Shown here piece by piece: positions 22,335 through 50,685 of a DNA stretch of 64,000 nt; position 1 is the stretch's first letter; each line of letters starts with the position of its first letter. The DNA comes from Medicago truncatula (taxonomy: Eukaryota; Streptophyta; Magnoliopsida; Fabales; Fabaceae): NCBI RefSeq assembly GCF_003473485.1, contig NC_053045.1:45984494-46048493 (forward strand), written 5' to 3'. Position numbers and translations under genes: made by a program. The notes beneath the pieces are model-generated. The model saw only the letters and a program-made list of their open reading frames with translations. It was not told where the DNA came from and searched no databases.

Positions 22335-22476
22335 TAATATATAATATATTGAAGGTAGATAGAAAGATAAAGACCATGTTGTGTTGTGTGTGTGCACCTA
22401 TAAACATTACACAGTAGAGAAATGGGTGAAGTGAAACGTGTAGAGTGAACAAGGGTGAGTAAGTAATACAAAAAGG

Positions 22477-22504
22477 CCACGTGGTGCAAGTGACTAACGT
22501 GTCC
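22477..22504 (+). promoter_or_regulatory. G-box and ABRE-like motifs before the small secreted-protein gene
   Basis: CCACGTGG at 22477-22484 is a perfect G-box palindrome, and ACGTGTCC follows at about 22497. Such paired ACGT cores about 100 bases before a start codon are typical of abscisic-acid or stress control. Use in vivo is inferred. Confidence 0.5.
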
Positions 22505-22588
22505 ACAAGCCAACAATGGTACCCTACCGTACTTAACAACATTACTAATGACTTTGTTTTGAATGAGAATAATATTATGCTATACTCT

Positions 22589-23197
22589 ATGGATAAAAAG
22601 CTTGGTGCAAGTGGTGTGGTTTTGGTGTTAGTATTCTTCAGCTTCACTATAGCTAATGTGAATGGAGATTCAGTTAATGATGAAGATCAGAGTAAGAAAT
22701 CAGCTTTGTGGGTATGGCAGAGACTAAGAAATGCATATTCTATGTATTCATCAGTTTTCCCAACAAATATTGGACAATATTGGCACATGGTTAAGGCCAT
22801 TGTCAATCACACTTATGCTTATTTCTTCCCTCCAAATCTAGAGTAAGCTACTAACCTTCTCCATCTCAATATATTTATTTATTTATTTATTTAGTATTCT
22901 CATTTCAACCTTGTGCTTTTATTTTCATAGCATATTCTTTGTTACATACCATGCACAAGACACACAAATACTAGCTACTTCATTCATTAATAATTTGTTT
23001 TTATAAGTTTTAGGAGAGGAGAAGAGGGTGAAGCAGTGGTAGATAACAATGGAGCAGGGGATAAGGTGAAAGAAGCTTTAGCCAAAAGCCTAGGAACAAG
23101 CAAAGCAACGTTGGAGGATGCTGCAAAATCAGCAGCAGATAAGGTCAAGAGGAGTTTGTCTGATGATAGGGAAAAGAAACATCCAAAAGAGCTCTAA
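22589..23197 (+). CDS. Small secreted LEA-like protein, two exons
   Basis: Exon 1 (22589-22842) and exon 2 (23014-23197) join in phase across a 171-base GT-AG intron to give 145 aa. An in-frame ATG at 22577 could add four residues. The N-terminus is a signal peptide (MDKKLGASGVVLVLVFFSFT), cleaved around residue 25. The middle is aromatic-rich (WVWQRLRNAYSMY, YWHMVKAIVNHTYAYFFPP). The C-terminal part (KVKEALAKSLGTSKATLEDA, AADKVKRSL) is a charged, Ala/Lys-rich helix resembling late-embryogenesis-abundant repeats. It ends in HPKEL, only loosely like an ER-retention signal. I do not recognise a named family. The ABRE and G-box motifs upstream would fit a stress role. The gene is inferred from splice signals and reading frame. 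Confidence 0.75.
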
Positions 23198-27021: not shown

Positions 27022-30000
27022 GATCAAAATTATCCCAGTGTGGCAGTGTCTATGTGTTGGTGTTGGTACCGTATCCGTGTCTGTGTCAATGCTTCATAGA
27101 TAATGTATGATGGATGGATATATTTGGTAAATCAAACAAATATCGGTATTCATTGCTAGTCTCCTCAATTGGTTATCCTTTTGAATTTCAAGGCTTTATG
27201 AAGATAGGTTTATATGCTCTTATAGGCTAAAAGCCTAAAACATACTCTAAGAAACTAAGTTCAAATTATTATGTTTTATCTACAAGAAAGTTGTGTCACA
27301 TAATAGTTTTTCCTTACAAAGCAAGATGGTTTGCTTCTTTTACTTTTGCAGAAACAGATGACATGTAACTTAGGCATGTATGTTTCAGGTTTGGGATATT
27401 CAACCCAACAATCGTTTATGATCATTTGGGGGAGATATATTCCACACTCAGCTTTGGGAGCTTTATCTTTTGTATTTTCTTATACATAAAAGTGAGACTG
27501 TTGTGAAATTGAAGAAATGATAAGGTATTTGTTTCCTGTGCAATTTACATTGAATTTTCTGACTCAAGTGTTATATTTGATAGGGTCATTTGGCACCATC
27601 TTCTACTGATTCTGGTTCAAGTGGGAACATAATCATCGATTTTTACTGGGTAAACTAATCTCTGCTTCTTAATTTGATTAAACTGCTCAACAATTTTTTT
27701 GTCTTATCCATTTATTTGCATTGGAAATTGACATTGATTTAACAAAGAGAATGTGAACGATGGAAAAAATTAAAATAAAACTGAGTGATAGCATGAAAAA
27801 TCTCTCTTGTCTGATTACTGGCGTCATGCCTTTAGAGGATCATTGATGCAACAGACCTTTCTTTAAAATTACCGCCTCTCATTCTAAACCAAGTAGGCTA
27901 CGATAATGCATGGAAAATTCTTTTAGAATTACCCATCCTTTTGTTTAAACTGGTTTGACTGAAATTCCATTCATAATGCCACTATGTGAACTTTGAAATT
28001 CTTATTGTAGAAATGTTTCAACGTTTTATGGTTGTAATTTTCATTTTCACCATATTACAAGAAATTGTTTGATAAACTAAAATTCATCCCTTGAGATGTT
28101 TTTTTATATGAATAACAGGCCTAGACATGTGGAGTTTAATTCCACCTTTTTTTCCATAAATGACAGCCTTCTATCTTTCTGCCATTCTGCAGGGTATGGA
28201 GTTCTATCCACGCATTGGAAAATATTTTGACATAAAAGTTTTCACAAACTGCAGATTTGGAATGATGTCGTGGGCTATTCTGGCACTTACTTACTACATA
28301 AAGCAGGTTGAGTCTACGAGGTTTTATTCTTTGTATAAATACTGAAGTCAAGCATAATGATTGTGCTATCCAGCATTTAGCTGGAAAACGTAGAAAACAC
28401 TGATGAATAATCCTTTAAATACCTATTTGTAGTTAGAAACAGTTTGAACGTGGGGACCTTGGTGATTAGGTGGCCAATCAAGCTCCATAGAAGCTGAGGC
28501 CATCTACTTTTGATTTTTTTTTTGTCTTCTGCTGAGATCTAATTTATGATAGGGATATAAATCATATTTATATGTGGTTGGACTTCCTAAGTTGCTTTGG
28601 ATATAGTGGCCAGTTGGTATTGACTTATTACCTCCATGAACATGATCTTACTAGTATATGAATCAGGAACATAAATTTATTTTGTAATTTTGTTTTGTGA
28701 AATTTCCATCCTTTGGTTAACTCTCTATTGTTCATATTCTTGTCTTAATAGTATGAAGAAAATGGGAAGGTAGCTGACTCAATGCTTGTAAATACTACAT
28801 TAATGCTGGTGTATGTTACCAAGTTTTTCTGGTGGGAAGCTGGATACTGGAACACAATGGATATTGCACACGATCGAGGTCTACACATATGCTTTATCTT
28901 TGTTTTTGTTGACATACTTGCTCTTTCCTATCGTTCTGCTGATATGTTCTTTTGGCGTCATTAGTTTTCATAGTTTATTAAGTTTAAGATCAAGATCATA
29001 TCTTCCATAACAACTGTATTTCATTTATCATGTTTGGATTAGTTTTCATATATTGTTGATAAGTTCATTGTATACATTGTATTTAAACCTCTTTATCGTG
29101 TCCCTAAATCTTGCAGCTGAATTTTAAATTTGTTGGGGCTGTTTGGTTTTGGTTCCATCAGTGTATACATCTCCTGGAATGTACCTTGTCAACCATCCAG
29201 TGAATCTTGGCACCCAGGTACCATCCCTTTCCTGTTTGAGCTGTTGTTTTGTGGTAGTTATTTATACCGCAGAGTTTTCCTTATTTCTAATATACTTTTC
29301 AAATTTCAATGTTTTCCACTTTTTTTTGAAAATTAGCTTCCTTGTCTTTCAGCTAGTACTCTTTATTTTAGTGGCTGGCATTATGTGCATATACATCAAT
29401 TATGATTGTGACAGGCAAAGGCAAGAGTTTCGTAGGACAAATGGAAAAAGCTTGGTCTGGGGAAAAGCTCCATCAAAGATAAAGATGCGTAGAATATACT
29501 GGGTTACTATTTTTCATTTGAAATGTACTTTCTATTTTCTATATAATGCAAGTCAGATTGGGAATCTTATTGTCGTGAGACTTGCATAAGGTATTCATAA
29601 TGAAAATGTACTTGCAGATAGAAGCCTCATATACCACTTCTTCCGGAGAAACAAAAAGAAGCCTTCTTTTAACCTCTGGATGGTATGTATCCCTTAAAAA
29701 CATTCTATTTTTGAAGCATATGTAAACATACTTAAACACTAAGTTGTTGTAATGATTGAGAGAGCTTAAACTCACTATTTTTTGGGGTGGATTCCAGACA
29801 TTTGACTTAAAATGTGTTACAATCTGATATTTATAGTTTGCCTCCATATAGAAATATTATTGCTAACTATAGGTTATACATCCTTTTAAAAAAGAAAACA
29901 ATAGTTTATGCATTTAATCTCATAATATATATTTGATTTTTCTAGTTGGCCCAACATTTTCTTAGAGAACATGTCTTATTTCTCAAAGTAACCAGTTCAC

Positions 30001-38000: not shown

Positions 38001-40459
38001 GCTATCCAGCATTTAGTTGGAAAACACAGATGAATAATCCTTTAAATACCTATTTGTAGTTAGAAACAGTTTGAACGTGGGGACCTTGGTGATTAGGTGG
38101 CCAATCAAGCTCCATAGAAGCTGAGGCCATCTACTTTTGAGTTTTTTTTGTCTTCTGAGAAGATCTAATTTATGATAGGGATATAAATCATATTTATATG
38201 TGGTTGGACTTCCTTAGTTGTTTTGGATATAGTGGCCAGTTGGTATTGACTTATTACCTCCATGAACATGATCTTACTAGTATATGAATCAGGAACATAA
38301 ATTTATTTTGTAATTTTGTTTTGTGAAATTTCCATCCTTTGGTTAACTCTCTATTGTTCGTATTCTTGTCTTAATAGTATGAAGAAAATGGGAAGGTAGC
38401 TGACTCAATGCTTGTAAATACTACATTAATGCTGGTGTATGTTACCAAGTTTTTCTGGTGGGAAGCTGGATACTGGAACACAATGGATATTGCACACGAT
38501 CGAGGTCTGCACATATGTTTTATCTTTGTTTTTGTTGACATACTTGCTCTTTCCTATCGTTATGCTGATATGTTCTTTTGGCGTCATTAGTTTTCATAGT
38601 TTATTAAGTTTAAGATCAAGATCATATCTTCCATAACAACTGTATTTCATTTATCATGTTTGGATTAGTTTTCATATATTATTGATAAGTTCATTGTATA
38701 CATTGTATTTAAACCTCTTTATCGTGTCCCTAAATCTTGCAGCTGGATTTTATATTTGTTGGGGCTGTTTGGTTTGGGTTCCATCAGTGTATACATCTCC
38801 TGGAATGTACCTTGTCAACCATCCAGTGAATCTTGGCACCCAGGTACCATCCCTTTCCTGTTTGAGCTGTTGTTTTGTGGTAGTTATTTATACCGCAGAG
38901 TTTTCCTTATTTCTAATATACTTTTCAAATTTCAATGTTTTCCACTTTTTTTTTGAAATTAGCTTCCTTGTCTTTCAGCTAGCACTCTTTATTTTTGTGG
39001 CTGGCATTCTGTGCATATACATCAATTATGATTGTGACAGGCAAAGGCAAGAGTTTCGTAGGACAAATGGAAAAAGCTTGGTCTGGGGAAAAGCTCCATC
39101 AAAGGTAAATATGCATATAGAATATACTGGGTTACTATTTTTCATTTGGAATGTACTTTCTATTTTCTATATAATGCAAGTCAGATTGAGAATCTTATTG
39201 TCGTAAGACTTGCATAAGGTATTCATAATGAAAATGTACTTGCAGATAGAAGCCTCATATACCACTGCTTCCGGGGAAACAAAAAGAAGCCTTCTTTTAA
39301 CCTCTGGATGGTATGTATCCCTTAAAAACATTCTATTTTTGAAGCATATGTAAACATACTTAAACACTAAGTTGTTGTAATGATTGAGAGAGCTTAAACT
39401 CGCTATTTTTTGGGGCGGATTCCGGACATTTGACTTAAAATGTGTTACAATCTGATATTTATAGTTTGCCTCCATATAGAAATATTATTGCTAACTATAG
39501 GTTATACATCCTTTTAAGAAAGAAAACAATAGTTTATGCATTTAATATCATAATGTATATTTGATTTTTCTAGTTGGCCCAACATTTTCTTAGAGAACAT
39601 GTCTTATTTCTCAAAGTAACCAGTTTACTTTTTCTGTGCTACCTGCCAGGTGGGGATTAGCTCGTCATTTTCATTATGTACCTGAAATATTAGCTGCATT
39701 CTTCTGGACAGTCCCAGCTCTTTTCAATCACGTAAGAAGAGTGTTTATTTCTCTGTACAGTTGAAAGTTGTAGAGAATGTTAACCTTAACAACTTTTTTA
39801 CTGTGCAGTTCTTGCCTTATTTCTACGTGATATTTCTTATTATCCTTCTTTTTGATCGAGCAAAAAGGGATGATGATCGATGCAGATCCAAGTAAGCATT
39901 ATTTTCTATCTATTAGTGTTGCTTATAGTTCTTGGACATTTTATTTTCAATGTGCAGAGAGAACCACAGATGCTCTTTTTGTCATATCATTCTATTCTTA
40001 CAAACAGTTTGCTTTATGAGTCATGGCGGTGCATGTTTGGATCGGTTGTGAGTTTGTCAAAATCAAGTTAGCACCATGATTTTGTTGAAGCTTTAAAATG
40101 TAGTTTTTGCTAAACTCATAATGCCAACAGCCTAAATTGTAATATATACGCTTTATTTTTCATATCTATAGGAAACCAATGGCCTACCGTTTCAACCAGA
40201 TTTGGCCTGTCTCTGAAATATACAATTCATAATGCCACTGCAATGCAATAAATAATTGAATGGATAGATTATTGAAAACCAAATTTATTTATCATTGCAT
40301 CAACTGAACTTTTTATTACCAATGGATTAGGAAATTTGATGGTTCTAGGTCATTACAATGTACATGTAGTTAAAAATTTCCATTGCATGCAGGTATGGAA
40401 AGTACTGGAAACTCTATTGCGACAGGGTAGCTTACAGAATTATTCCAGGAATATATTGA
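35084..40459 (+). CDS. DWF5: Sterol delta-7 reductase (7-dehydrocholesterol reductase), intact copy
   Basis: Thirteen exons join in phase to 438 aa (Arabidopsis DWF5 has about 432): 35084-35184, 35256-35481, 35867-35922, 37019-37121, 37214-37279, 37829-37942, 38378-38504, 38743-38843, 38979-39104, 39246-39310, 39650-39731, 39809-39891 and 40393-40459. All introns are GT-AG. The enzyme reduces the delta-7 double bond of 5-dehydroepisterol to 24-methylenecholesterol in the ER membrane, feeding phytosterols and brassinosteroids. Diagnostic stretches are WPKPTLLSFQII, GPISPTGNRPFYK, DHLGEIYS, DFYWGMELYPRIG, FFWWEAGYWNTMDIAHDRAG, the ERG4/ERG24 signature SGWWGLARHFHYVPE, and the end RCRSKYGKYWKLYCDRVAYR. 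It is many-times membrane spanning. I see no defects. A decayed tandem copy lies upstream, so this one is probably the only functional copy in the window. Confidence 0.96.
36367..36394. repeat. (TA)n microsatellite in DWF5 intron 3
   Basis: Simple TA run, shorter than the compound run at the same place in the pseudogene. Confidence 0.9.
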
Positions 40460-43268: not shown

Positions 43269-44900
43269 ATGGGAAAATCTAGTACTTTGGTTCATTCTTC
43301 TAGATTTTTTCTTCTTCTTCTTCTTCTTCTTCTCAATGTCACTGTTTCTGAAGCATCCCCAACAGAAGAATCAGTGTACACCTCATTTCTTGAGTGTTTA
43401 ACAAACCACACAAACCCTTCAGACCAAGTCTCCAACATACTCTTTTCTCAAACCAATGTTTCTTTTTCTTCTATTCTCCAAGCATATATTCGTAATGCTC
43501 GATTAAACAAAACTTCAACACCAAAACCCTTACTAATCATTACTCCTCTGCAACAATCCCATGTTCAAGCTACCATACTTTGTGCCAAAGCCATTAAAAT
43601 TCAACTCAAAGTAAGGAGTGGTGGCCATGACTTTGAAGGTATCTCATATGTCTCTAACCAACCCTTCATTATTCTTGACATGTTTCAGTTCAGGAACATC
43701 ACTGTTGACATACAAAATGAGGTTGCTGTGGTTCAGTCTGGTGCTATACTTGGTGAGGTTTATTATAGGATATGGGAGAAGAGTAAAGTTCATGGCTTTC
43801 CTGCTGGGGTTTGTATTACTGTTGGTGTTGGTGGTCACTTGAGTGGTGGAGGGTATGGTAACATGATGAGAAAATTTGGGTTGTCTATTGATAATGTTGT
43901 TGATGCTGAAATTGTTGATGTTAATGGTAGGATTCTTGATAGGAAATCAATGGGTGAAGAACTTTTTTGGGCTATTAGAGGAGGTGGAGGAGCAAGTTTT
44001 GGAGTTATTTTATCATACAGTATTAAATTGGTTCAAGTACCTGAAGTTGTTACTGTTTTTCGTGTTGAGGAGAGTTTGGATAGTTTGGATCAGAATATCA
44101 CTGAGTTTGTGTTGCAGTGGCAGAATGTTGCGCCGCGTACCGATGATAGGCTTTTCATGAGGCTGCATATTCAGCCTGCGAGTTCTAAGGTTGTAAAAGG
44201 GGAGATAACTGTTAGAGTGTCAGTTATGGCTTTGTTTCTTGGAGGTGCTGATGAACTTGTTACACTTCTAGGGAAGGAGTTTCCCTCTCTTGGTTTGAAG
44301 AAAGAAAATTGTTCTGAAATGAGTTGGATTGGTTCTGCGCTTTGGTGGGGTATTAGTAGCAACTCAAAACCAGATGAGCTTCTAGACAGGAATATTGATT
44401 CGGCAAAATTTCTCAAGAGGAAATCTGATTATGTGGAGAATCCAATTTCAAAAGATGGGTTGGAAGGGATATATAAGAAGCTGATTGAATTGGGAAAAGT
44501 AGGATTGACTTTCAACCCTTACGGTGGAAAAATGAACTCGATAGCATCTAATGCTACCGCGTTTCCTCACCGTGCAGGGAATCTGTTCAAGATTCAGTAT
44601 TCGGTGAATTGGGATAAGCCTGGAATTGATATAGAAAATAATTTTACAAATCAGGCTAGAATGCTGTATGATTACATGACACCTTTTGTTTCCAATAATC
44701 CAAGAAGAGCCTTTTTAAATTATAGGGACCTTGATATTGGTACTAATGATTTTGGAAATAATAGTTATGAACAAGGAGTTGTTTATGGAATGAAGTATTT
44801 CAGTAGCAATTTTGAGAGGTTGGTTAAGATCAAGACTGCAGTAGATCCAGAAAACTTCTTCAGGAATGAACAAAGTATTCCAACTCACCCTGGTAAGTAA
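43269..44900 (+). CDS. BBE-like FAD-linked oxidase (cluster gene 4), unspliced form
   Basis: Without splicing the gene gives 543 aa. The first ATG is at 43269 and starts MGKSSTLVHSSRF followed by a run of eight leucines (encoded by CTT repeats), a signal peptide. FAD residues are present: SGGHDFEG with His120 and Cys182. The cysteine motif reads C-I-T instead of the usual C-P-T, so Pro is replaced by Ile183. [17 protein letters not shown], the K-I-Q motif (FKIQYSVNW), NYRDLDIG and [10 protein letters not shown] follow. Phe122 replaces Tyr near the flavin. The stop TAA at 44898-44900 lies inside a consensus splice donor (G|GTAAGTAAT, cut after 44892); joining to 45113 gives a longer protein of 580 aa. 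It is closest to the gene at 47231. Confidence 0.95.
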   Translation: MGKSSTLVHSSRFFLLLLLLLLNVTVSEASPTEESVYTSFLECLTNHTNPSDQVSNILFSQTNVSFSSILQAYIRNARLNKTSTPKPLLIITPLQQSHVQATILCAKAIKIQLKVRSGGHDFEGISYVSNQPFIILDMFQFRNITVDIQNEVAVVQSGAILGEVYYRIWEKSKVHGFPAGVCITVGVGGHLSGGGYGNMMRKFGLSIDNVVDAEIVDVNGRILDRKSMGEELFWAIRGGGGASFGVILSYSIKLVQVPEVVTVFRVEESLDSLDQNITEFVLQWQNVAPRTDDRLFMRLHIQPASSKVVKGEITVRVSVMALFLGGADELVTLLGKEFPSLGLKKENCSEMSWIGSALWWGISSNSKPDELLDRNIDSAKFLKRKSDYVENPISKDGLEGIYKKLIELGKVGLTFNPYGGKMNSIASNATAFPHRAGNLFKIQYSVNWDKPGIDIENNFTNQARMLYDYMTPFVSNNPRRAFLNYRDLDIGTNDFGNNSYEQGVVYGMKYFSSNFERLVKIKTAVDPENFFRNEQSIPTHPGK

Positions 44901-45112
44901 TAGAGGATGGAGTTATGAAATTGTTTGATGCATTTGTTTGTTCATGTGTTATTGGTGGGCCTATTAGTTCCTACTTCCTACTGATTTGCCGAATAATTTG
45001 ATTATAATAACAAACCTTAAGAGAACTTCTTAATATCGTGATAAATTGATCTCTTCTATGAAATATATGTTGTATGATTCAATTTTGAATGTCTTTCCTT
45101 CAATGATTGCAG

Positions 45113-45231
45113 GTTCCGACTCCGGTGCCAGTACCTCTAGTGCCGACAAAGTGTTACTTTCCAGCATGCGTGGAAAACTTATGGTAAAGGTGGTAATTGT
45201 ATGGTTTCTCATGCTTGAATTGTTCATCTGA
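45113..45231 (+). CDS. Alternative 3' exon of BBE-like gene 4 (GPI-signal-like tail)
   Basis: A GT-AG intron of 220 bases (44893-45112, donor GTAAGT, acceptor CTTTCCTTCAATGATTGCAG) would join the last Gly codon of the gene in phase to this exon. The new C-terminus reads GSDSGASTSSADKVLLSS, then MRGKLMVKVV, and ends IVWFLMLELFI before TGA. A stretch of small residues followed by a hydrophobic end is the layout of a GPI-anchor signal. Retaining the intron gives a soluble form; removing it would give a membrane-anchored form. The exon is inferred from splice consensus and phase only. Confidence 0.6.
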
Positions 45232-47167
45232 TTACTGTAATTATACACGGATTTAGATTAACTATCCTATAAAGAATATTCACTCTACTGTTTATTTGCT
45301 TAAAACTTTAGTGTCCATGTAAAGGAAATTGTAATTGAAAATTGGTAAGCTACTGTCAGTAGATCAGTAAGTAGTAACAATCACATTGGCAAGTGGTTTC
45401 AGATGAGGAAGGAAAGAAATACAACGAATTTCATACAAAAGTAATTCCTCTATATATAATAGTACTGGCTTACATATTTCTGCAGAGGAGACTGAATCAA
45501 ATCTTTGAATTTGATTTGAGTCTAACTTAACATACAAAACTGACTTTTAAGGTGAGACTGTCTATCACCTATAAGCAACCACTTATTTGATCATATCACT
45601 AATTGATGTGAGATCTCAAACATCAAATATGTCTTAGTTTGACGTGCGATACTAATCTTTTAAGTTATCAGAATCAAATTAAGTTTCATTTATTAATTAC
45701 ATAGTTAAAAATGTAGCTCTCTTTAGCACTAGGAGTTTCCAGGTTGAATTTTTAAGGTTTCTGGGAACAATTCAGCGGAGAGGGTTAAGTCACATGCAAG
45801 AAAGTGTGAACATTGGGAAGAAAAAGAACCATTGGTGATGAGGCTATAAAAATTAAGCTTCTCTGCAAATAATGCTGCTGAAACTGGGCATCATAACTTG
45901 ATCCTATGAATCCAATAAAGATAAGTAAATAATGAAAAACACACTTACTCAACATTTTGAGTCAATGGCAATTAGTCCAAAATTCCAAAGTGTTCTAAAT
46001 TCAACAGCTCCATTTATCTGCCTATTGATCTAAGAGTATGTGTTCTGTCCAAACAAGCTTCAGAGAAGTTAATATTCAATTGACTTTGATACACCAATTA
46101 AAACGCCACTTTTACAATATTAATATTTAATACACTGCATTTTTACCATGACAATTTTACCTTTACAGACTTGTTTTTACTTTTTTTCTCTGTTGAAAGT
46201 AATTTTAGAAGCAATTGAGTCAGCAACTGCTCACTATTAGGAGGTTATACATTCTGCAACATTGTTACACAAAGCTTTCTCCCTCTTTGATGTATTGAGC
46301 TTTTGCTATTTGGCATGCTGCAGAATTCAGAATGAAATAAATTATCATTTATTAGTCTATTTCATCTCTATTTCTATATATCCTTTATTACCATTTTACA
46401 ATGAAATTCGATCAAATACCAACTTCCCCTGTAAGGGATTTTCAGTTTCTCGGTTATCTCCCCCAATCCAAAGTATCTGTCCCAACCATTGTCTATAATA
46501 ATGATCATCAGTCAACTAAAAATAAACTGATCAAAAGTCTACAACCACTGCATATGTTTTTTATTAAGGAACGAATCAGCTCCCACAAATAAAATAAATC
46601 GATCAGTTGGAAGTTGGAACGTTCAAATACATGGCTATGACTTATGAGAATGAATTTGATATATATTATGGCACGTATCATCTCCCTCAAATAAAATAAA
46701 TGACTACATGCTTTAAAAAAGAATCTTGAGATACCCTCAACATTTAAAAATCATGTTCAGTTTATCTTCTCTTATGTACCTAACCAGATTGAGTTGTGTT
46801 GATGAGAGTCACATCTCCAGATACAGAATCAAAGTGTAAACCTTAAAAAAATACAATTATTGCTGATATTGCTGCAGACATGTATTGCACCAGAATTATT
46901 AAGTATTGTGAAATGTTTGTTTTGTTCTGTGCTGTTTTTTTTTTCTTTTCCCAATGATATGCAAATATGCATGTTTCTCATGAGTCCAAAATGGCCAATG
47001 AGAATAAAGTACATCAATAATCTAGAAAATGATTACTGTAGAAAAAACAATGACATGTATACTTGTAGCATTTTTGGCATGCTTGCCAGATAGACTTGAA
47101 TGAGCTGGATACACTAAAATTAATACACACCAAAGACACAAACTTTTGTGGTCCAATATGTCTTCTG
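45232..47167. other. Intergenic between BBE-like genes 4 and 5
   Basis: AT-rich, with no gene or clear transposon recognised. It separates two closely related paralogues. Confidence 0.45.
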
Positions 47168-47230: not shown

Positions 47231-48850
47231 ATGGATAAATCAAATTCTGTTCCATTTCTTTCTGTTTTTATTATACTTCTTCTTGTACATGTTTCTAATT
47301 CTCATGCAGCCCCATCAAGTGAGTCCATTTATGTCACTTTTCTTCAGTGTCTTAAAAACCATACTACCCAACCAAATCAAGTTTCCAACATAGTCTATTC
47401 CCAAACCAATGCATCATACACCTCTATTTTTCAAGCCTTTATTAGAAATGCTAGGTTCAACACCCCCTCCACCACAAAACCATTACTTATCATCACCCCT
47501 TTGCATGAAGACCAAGTACAAGCCACTGTTCTTTGCTCAAAAACCATTGGTCTTCATCTCAAAATTAGAAGTGGAGGTCATGATTTTGAAGGTATTTCGT
47601 ATATCTCTGATACTCCCTTTATTATCCTTGATATGTTCAATTTTCAAAACATCACCGTCGATATACAAAATGAGATTGCTATCATTCAAACCGGTGCAAG
47701 TCTCGGACAAGTATATTATAGGATATGGGAGAAAAGTAAAGTTCATGGCTTTCCTGCCGGCGTTTGTCCAACTGTTGGTGTTGGTGGCCATTTGAGTGGA
47801 GGAGGGTATGGTAACATGATGAGAAAATTCGGGTTATCTATTGATAATATTGTTGATGCTAAAATTATTGATGTCAATGGTAGAATTCTTGACAAGAAAA
47901 CTATGGGGGAAGATCTTTTTTGGGCTATTAGAGGAGGTGGAGGAGCAAGTTTTGGAGTTATCTTATCGTACACGGTTAAACTTGTTTCGGTACCAGAAAA
48001 GGTTACAGTTTTTCAAGTAGACAAGAGTTTGGAGCAGAATGCTACCGACATTGTTTTCCAGTGGCAACAAGTTGCGCCGCATACAGACGATAGGCTTTTC
48101 ATGAGACTAGTATTGCAGCCTGTGAATTCAAAGATCGTAAAGGGTAAGAAAACTGTAAGTGCTTCAATTCAAGCTATGTTTCTTGGAGGTGCTGATGAAC
48201 TTGTAACATTATTCGGGAAAGAGTTTCCTTTGTTGGGACTAAAGAAGGAAATATGCAAGGAAATGAGTTGGATTGAGTCTGTATTTTATTGGGCTAATTA
48301 CAATGATGGATCATCCTTAATTACACTTCTTGACAGAAGCCATTACAAAGTGCATTTCAGCAAAAGAAAATCTGATTATGTAAAGTCACCAATTCCTAAA
48401 GACGGATTGAAATGGATTATGAATAAATTGATTGAACTTGGAAAAGTTGAGCTTGTTTTCAATCCTTATGGAGGAAAAATGAGTGAGATATCCTCCGCAG
48501 CTACTGCATTTGCTCACCGTGCAGGGAATCTGTACAAAATTCAATATACTGCGAGTTGGGAAAATTCAGCAGCTGGTATGGAAAAGAGTTTTATAAGTCA
48601 GATTAGAATGATGTATAGTTACATGACACCATTTGTGTCCAAAAATCCAAGGAGTGCTTATTTGAACTATAGGGACCTTGATATTGGTATTAATGGTCAT
48701 GATAAGAATGCATACAATGATGGAGTGGTTTATGGAATGAAGTACTTTGGTGAAAATTTTGAAAGGTTGGTGAAGGTTAAAACTGCAGTTGATCCTGAAA
48801 ACTTTTTCTGGAATGAACAGAGTATCCCAACACTTCCAAGCAAGGTATAG
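47231..48850 (+). CDS. BBE-like FAD-linked oxidase, secreted (cluster gene 5)
   Basis: A complete intronless gene of 539 aa. The frame is open upstream but has no ATG before 47231, which begins the signal peptide MDKSNSVPFLSVFIILLLVH. FAD-binding residues are intact: SGGHDFEG with His117 and VCPTVGVGGH with Cys179. [17 protein letters not shown], the K-I-Q motif (YKIQYTASW) and NYRDLDIG are present. Phe119 replaces Tyr near the flavin, as in genes 2 and 4. The closing motif reads NFFWNEQSIP, with Trp where the other members have Arg (Lys in gene 3). It is the nearest relative of gene 4, but no equivalent of that gene's 3' exon was found downstream. The substrate is unknown. Confidence 0.96.
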   Translation: MDKSNSVPFLSVFIILLLVHVSNSHAAPSSESIYVTFLQCLKNHTTQPNQVSNIVYSQTNASYTSIFQAFIRNARFNTPSTTKPLLIITPLHEDQVQATVLCSKTIGLHLKIRSGGHDFEGISYISDTPFIILDMFNFQNITVDIQNEIAIIQTGASLGQVYYRIWEKSKVHGFPAGVCPTVGVGGHLSGGGYGNMMRKFGLSIDNIVDAKIIDVNGRILDKKTMGEDLFWAIRGGGGASFGVILSYTVKLVSVPEKVTVFQVDKSLEQNATDIVFQWQQVAPHTDDRLFMRLVLQPVNSKIVKGKKTVSASIQAMFLGGADELVTLFGKEFPLLGLKKEICKEMSWIESVFYWANYNDGSSLITLLDRSHYKVHFSKRKSDYVKSPIPKDGLKWIMNKLIELGKVELVFNPYGGKMSEISSAATAFAHRAGNLYKIQYTASWENSAAGMEKSFISQIRMMYSYMTPFVSKNPRSAYLNYRDLDIGINGHDKNAYNDGVVYGMKYFGENFERLVKVKTAVDPENFFWNEQSIPTLPSKV

Positions 48851-49652: not shown

Positions 49653-50685
49653 GAATGTTGCTCTTCACCCAGCACATTTTGCTCGCGCCCTGCAGCCATG
49701 CCAAAAATGCCCTTGCGCAAGTTAAGTCACGCTGCATGACTTAACTTGCGCACCTTCTAACCTCTGTGTGACTTAAGTCACGCACCACGGGCCTATGCAC
49801 GAGTTAACTCACGCACGTTAGCCGGTGGTCACAACTGAAGAACAAACGTTTTTTGGACGGTGGTCAGGTTTTCGACCTTCAACCCACACGTTTTCTACAA
49901 ACTTTACACGTTTTTTTGACCACATTTATGGTGGTTATAACCTACACTATCATTTCCACCTATAAATACTCCTCCATACTTACCTATTTTCTCACACCAT
50001 CTCACTTTCTCCTCCTCACTCTCTCCCTCTATTTATCTTCTTTCTTTCTTTTTTTCAATATTCTCTTTGGGGGCAAAAGTGATCAAACTTCTTCGGGGTA
50101 AAATAGTGAGTAGCCGACTTGGGGAAGTGATCAACTCTTAGGATAAGTTTAAATCTGTTTTTTTTTACTCCATAAACTTTTTACTGTGGGTAAAAATATT
50201 CTTGTTGGGGTATAAAAAAATAAAATAAAAAAAAAGATTTAAATTTAGCCCAAGGATTGGTGATGTATTTTCCCCAAGAAGGCTCACTATTTTACCCTAA
50301 GATGATTGATTACTTTTTACCCCAAAAGGGAGAAAATAAGTAGAATAAATTAGTGAATTGGAATCAATTATTGTATCAATTATTGTATTGTATAAATTCT
50401 ATTAATAAAATGAGATATTGTTATATGCCTCAATTTTGTTCATTCCTTTTTATATTTGCTTTTATTTTATAATTCTATATTTAATGAATAAATATTAATT
50501 TAGTTCATTTACTTTTATTTATATTTGTATTTATTTAATGAATAATATCGATTCAATATTAATTTAATAAACATTAATGTATGAATAATTAGAATAAAGT
50601 AAATAAAATAAATTAGAATAAAGTAAATAAAATAATTTAGAATAAAGTTAATAAAATAATTTGAATTAAAATTGAAATTAAATAA

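Follow-up and report, generated by a model that had tools for sequence, protein, structure and literature searches.

The window analysed here, a stretch of 64,000 nucleotides of the Medicago truncatula genome (C4:45984494-46048493), lies within a tandem array of genes for BBE-like proteins. A profile search of the genome (429.9 Mb in 42 contigs) found the BBE domain (PF08031) at at least 39 places, and 12 of these 39 fall into a stretch of C4 from 45.857 to 46.064 Mb that includes the window. This study concerns one member of the array, gene 4, which starts at position 43269 and is followed by its relative gene 5 (47231-48850). The window also holds a MIR2670 microRNA precursor downstream of gene 5 (50093-50300; Rfam RF04156, 153 bits), two near-identical open frames about 9.5 kb apart that look duplicated or repeat-derived (29128-29589 and 38637-39206; ICWGCLVLVPSVYTSPGMYLVNHPVNLG...), and a short open frame for a possible small secreted protein (22463-22846; MDKKLGASGVVLVLVFFSFTIANVNGDS...).

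Gene 4 and its two reading frames

The product of gene 4 scores well above the curated cut-offs of two Pfam families, PF01565 (FAD_binding_4; residues 87-223, 80.9 bits, cut-off 26.4) and PF08031 (BBE; residues 481-538, 71.4 bits, cut-off 20.6). Its best solved relative is 8ate_A, which matches residues 33-541 with an E-value of 2.1e-203, and the AtBBE-like structure 4ud8_A is found with an E-value of 4.4e-154. Judged by its sequence, with both domains present and similarity to solved plant members along its full length, gene 4 is a plant BBE-like flavoprotein. A scan of viral contigs with the 543-residue protein returned one pattern match and no relative. The N-terminus appears hydrophobic by eye (MGKSSTLVHSSRFFLLLLLLLLNVTVSEA) and is a candidate signal peptide. 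At the oxygen gatekeeper position, the alignment places a valine in gene 4 and Leu-182 in AtBBE-like 15. According to an excerpt of PMC4513132, valine at this position permits a fast reaction with oxygen, and gene 4 is therefore expected to be an H2O2-producing oxidase. Around the motif AGVCITVGVGG, the cysteine of the oxygen loop is followed by an isoleucine in gene 4 (VCITVG) and by a proline in gene 5 and 8ate_A (VCPTVG).

The 3' end of the gene can be read in two ways, and the features involved are the following, all on the forward strand:

43269..44892, + strand: exon 1 of the BBE-like oxidase, residues 1-541 and the first base of codon 542 (from the open frame, Pfam and 8ate_A)
43269..44900, + strand: unspliced, intron-retaining frame of 543 residues ending in P-G-K, stop TAA at 44898-44900 (from the sequence; end like that of the paralogues)
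44893..45112, + strand: predicted terminal intron of 220 bases, phase 1, GTAAGT...TTGCAG, 41% T, G+C 30.5% (from splice scoring)
45113..45231, + strand: predicted exon 2, which completes codon 542 and adds 38 further residues and a TGA stop (from G+C, codon score and hydrophobicity)
45486..45508, + strand: second, weaker acceptor (score 4.18), whose exon would start at base 45486 (from its score; frame joined by hand)

Exon 1 ends in ...ACT CAC CCT G|GTAAGTAATAG, with the donor GT at 44893-44894, so that the last codons hold CTG|GTAAGTAA. The acceptor reads ...CTTTCCTTCAATGATTGCAG, with its last base at 45112, and the phase-1 join yields 39 codons (GSDSGASTSSADKVLLSSMRGKLMVKVVIVWFLMLELFI) up to the stop TGA at 45229-45231. 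The predicted spliced product thus comprises 541 + 39 = 580 residues from the ATG at 43269. Since the first glycine is made in both forms, splicing would replace nothing but the last lysine and the stop. The gene consequently contains two complete frames of 543 and 580 residues, whose C-termini are set apart by a single splicing choice. The original prediction had placed the stop codon within a consensus donor, and had described an acceptor at 45112 joining in phase to 39 codons with small residues and a hydrophobic end; all of these coordinates and counts proved correct. Joined by hand to the same donor, the alternative acceptor at 45486 would give a third C-terminus, EETESNL-stop, which is short and polar.

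Splice sites and tail against chance

We scored the splice sites with matrices of plant consensus values and compared them with the 3' flanks of the 39 BBE-domain loci, gene 4 included. Of the 2765 GTs in these flanks, 0.14% score as high as the donor (6.38), and of the 3117 AGs, 0.38% score as high as the acceptor (5.57). Local competition is low: between 44600 and 45300 there is one rival donor scoring at least 2.5 (4.32), and between 44900 and 45500 one rival acceptor scoring at least 2 (4.18). Both sites of gene 4 are thus the highest-scoring ones of their surroundings, and they are in phase. No match to the branch-point pattern YTNAY lies within 65 bases upstream of the acceptor.

For a transplant control, we took the 3' flanks of the 38 remaining loci, set a donor at every fifth base in each phase, and sought a GPI-like tail within the next 1200 bases. 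Such a tail was found in 109 of 55,545 trials behind acceptors scoring at least 2 (66 of them within 400 bases), and in 0 of 55,545 behind acceptors scoring at least 4 or at least 5.5. Likewise, in 2000 sequences from a Markov null of the gene's own 3' region, a tail appeared in 0.55% at an acceptor score of at least 2 and in none at 4 or above. The transplant and Markov figures flatter gene 4, because our criteria for a tail were set when the candidate was already known.

The predicted exon 2 itself carries moderate coding and compositional signals. Its G+C content is 0.445, against 0.305 in the intron and 0.309 downstream, a richness that 4.5% of 5206 flank windows attain. Its codon score is +2.5 in the predicted frame, against -1.0 and -2.2 in the other two; this value is equalled by 6.8% of 4418 open flank windows, and 32% of the gene's own coding windows score as low. 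Taken together, the arrangement of donor, acceptor and tail is unlikely to have come about by chance, and we consider it probable that the terminal intron is genuine.

The tail encoded by exon 2 is laid out as a run of small residues, SDSGASTSS, followed by DKVLLSSMRGKLMVK and then by VVIVWFLMLELFI up to the C-terminal end. It conforms to a simple rule of our own for GPI signals, namely a small-residue site, a spacer and a hydrophobic end, a rule drawn up post hoc and distinct from a validated predictor. For comparison, we used a small set of six tails of fasciclin and plastocyanin-like genes from the same genome, which we take to be GPI-anchored from what is known of their families. The best 13-residue hydropathy mean of the gene 4 tail is 2.78, within the range of these six (2.22-3.08). 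The tail also has a glutamate four residues before its end and four lysine or arginine residues; the basic residues lie in the spacer ahead of the hydrophobic stretch, whereas the glutamate lies inside it. One of the comparison tails (L073) likewise has a glutamate four residues before its end. Accordingly, the GPI-anchor-like C-terminus of the original prediction holds in its hydrophobicity, while the charged residues speak against it, and a role of the tail as a GPI signal is plausible.

Paralogues in the same genome

Among the BBE-domain places of this genome, the tail was found in gene 4 alone; the original prediction had likewise seen no equivalent in the other complete BBE-like genes of the window. 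The same scan of the 39 BBE-domain places found an equivalent tail in gene 4 alone (1/39), and a wider scan that allowed donors anywhere after the conserved EQSI motif gave the same result (1/35; four fragments that do not contain the motif were left out). Conservation was examined on the paralogues of the same genome, of which none carries the tail. At the DNA level, the 401-base region of gene 4 matches only itself in the genome, and within 2 kb downstream of the stops of the 39 loci, no convincing tail homolog was found (best other tblastn E-value 0.37, blastn 0.083).

A tree of 31 of the 39 loci, with the eight below 370 residues excluded, groups gene 4 with gene 5 (L038) at a support of 98/93, and this pair is joined by L041 and L050 with 100/100. 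These three nearest paralogues are 67%, 67% and 68% identical to gene 4 (gene 5, L041 and L050, respectively). They end in LPSKV (L038), LPGKA (L041) and LPRKA (L050), and the unspliced P-G-K of gene 4 ends alike. When aligned by hand, their stops read CCA AGC AAG GTA TAG in L038, CCT GGA AAG GCT TAG in L041 and CCA AGA AAA GCT TAG in L050. The three thus share their end point with the unspliced form of gene 4, but they have no good donor (the best, in L038, scores 3.0), and the tail was not found in them. Because they end in the usual way at the same point, it is simpler, within this genome, to assume that gene 4 gained the tail once than that it was lost repeatedly. This order of gain and loss would reverse if the isoform pair known from Arabidopsis shares the intron of gene 4.

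Just past the right end of the window, two further loci, L032 (C4:46053121) and L069 (C4:46063918), carry a near-identical GGTAAGTAA across their stops, with donor scores of 3.6 and 6.4, but the search downstream of it revealed a hydrophobic tail in phase in neither. L032 belongs to another clade than gene 4, and L069 is a fragment too short to place. As a tail was not found at these loci despite their donor, a donor alone proves little. Elsewhere in the genome, L039 (C2:12002684) has an unspliced C-terminal extension of 30-40 residues that departs from the usual family C-terminus, with a hydrophobic stretch (SLISIIFCLAVNWIW) ahead of a polar end. A concealed donor was considered for this locus and rejected, as none there scores at least 2 and the frame runs straight on to the polar end.

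These relationships invite an evolutionary scenario, which is speculative and in our estimate quite improbable: a lineage-specific gain, in which a single substitution in the codons GGA AAG at the end of the gene, a pair that L041 still has, would have created a GT donor over the stop, so that 3' flanking sequence became an intron plus a new exon. One oxidase of the tandem array would thereby have gained control over whether its H2O2 is produced freely in the apoplast or at the membrane surface, and this choice would be regulated.

Probable splicing, a possible soluble form and known systems

In the reading we prefer, gene 4 would encode a secreted flavin oxidase of the plant BBE-like family and contain one intron, at its 3' end. 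Splicing, which is probably the usual event, would take out the family-standard stop and add 38 residues laid out like a GPI-attachment signal, and the tailed enzyme would probably sit on the outside of the plasma membrane. If the intron is retained, or if the transcript ends inside it, a complete soluble enzyme of 543 residues should result, since the stop falls where the paralogues stop; this soluble form may be made in useful amounts. We give this account as a whole, with a usually spliced terminal intron, a GPI signal in the tail and a soluble enzyme upon retention, a probability of about 0.55.

The original prediction of a splicing switch that sets the enzyme free or binds it to the membrane is not supported by this sequence analysis, as the strong sites fit routine splicing and an early stop is typical of retained introns. 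The stop inside the donor was considered as a sign of a designed switch and rejected, given that any phase-1 GTAAGT with AA after it inevitably encodes G-K-stop. RNA structure across the intron was likewise rejected as a retention device, its fold energy being ordinary (z 0.27).

The account competes with three others. Since both splice sites are strong, splicing may be routine to the point of being essentially constitutive, so that the 580-residue form would be the sole meaningful product and the 543-residue frame a mere genomic reading or a partly processed transcript; the gene would then have a tail, but no switch. We regard this as a serious contender at somewhat less than even odds. It agrees with the high scores of the two sites, equalled by 0.14% and 0.38% of control sites, and with the scarcity of local rivals, and retained introns in general meet a stop soon. 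However, the stop of gene 4 coincides with that of its paralogues, so the retained form would be a complete family member, and retention of a last intron leaves no exon junction downstream, which means that decay need not remove the transcript. At the opposite extreme, gene 4 might be unspliced and end at 44900, with donor, acceptor and tail frame a chance coincidence in the 3' untranslated region. The near-identical sequence at the stops of L032 and L069, where tails were not found, and the moderate coding signal of exon 2 are in keeping with such a coincidence, but the transplant control, in which 0 of 55,545 trials yielded such a tail once the acceptor had to score at least 4, speaks against it, and we hold it to be unlikely.

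The remaining alternative accepts the tail as genuine and disputes its role: it might be a C-terminal sorting peptide, for instance a vacuolar one, or a plain hydrophobic membrane tail. The basic residues of the spacer, as well as the glutamate near the end, would suit this possibility, and C-terminal sorting peptides in plants can be hydrophobic. On the other hand, the order of small residues, spacer and a 13-residue hydrophobic end that lacks a polar finish is that of a GPI signal, and the glutamate has its counterpart in the comparison tail L073, so that a non-GPI tail appears doubtful to us.

If the preferred reading of a usually spliced, GPI-tailed enzyme with a soluble counterpart applies, the position of the enzyme would matter. 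An enzyme loose in the wall would act on other targets than one held at the membrane, next to receptors and NADPH oxidases. BBE-like oxidases such as OGOX1, as described in PMC10139151, oxidize and silence immunity-triggering fragments of the cell wall and also produce H2O2. If one gene does make both forms, the effect of location could be tested by mutating one splice site.

Related arrangements are known from Arabidopsis. There, At4g20830 has two isoforms of about 570 and 540 residues, which differ at their C-termini. This gene (OGOX1; AtBBE-like 20; UniProt Q9SVG4) is likewise a BBE-like oxidase, comes with a second isoform and appears in GPI listings; gene 4 might be its ortholog and might share its 3' intron. 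It stands in the GPI tables of PMC6726743 and is absent from the main text of PMC5014161. Its GPI status is disputed: PMC2571997 recounts that a GPI screen had recovered it and that a consensus method, unlike PredGPI, predicts it as GPI-anchored, and calls it a known contaminant, reported earlier as a major one. Proteome tables for root and apoplast contain its 'isoform 2' (Q9SVG4-2; PMC6299182 and PMC4371699), and AT4G20830.2 is assigned to both the extracellular space and the plasma membrane (excerpt of PMC4513132). A report of a splicing switch in a BBE-like gene was not among the papers listed in the literature searches. In other protein families, however, such pairs have been described: for SKS3 and CRK10, alternative splicing yields GPI-anchored as well as ordinary forms (excerpt of PMC6726743). 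As is predicted for gene 4, splicing there sets apart two forms of one protein; whereas the case for gene 4 is built on sequence, theirs is based on transcripts. As splice pairs of soluble and GPI-anchored forms are thus already known, gene 4 would be a further case.
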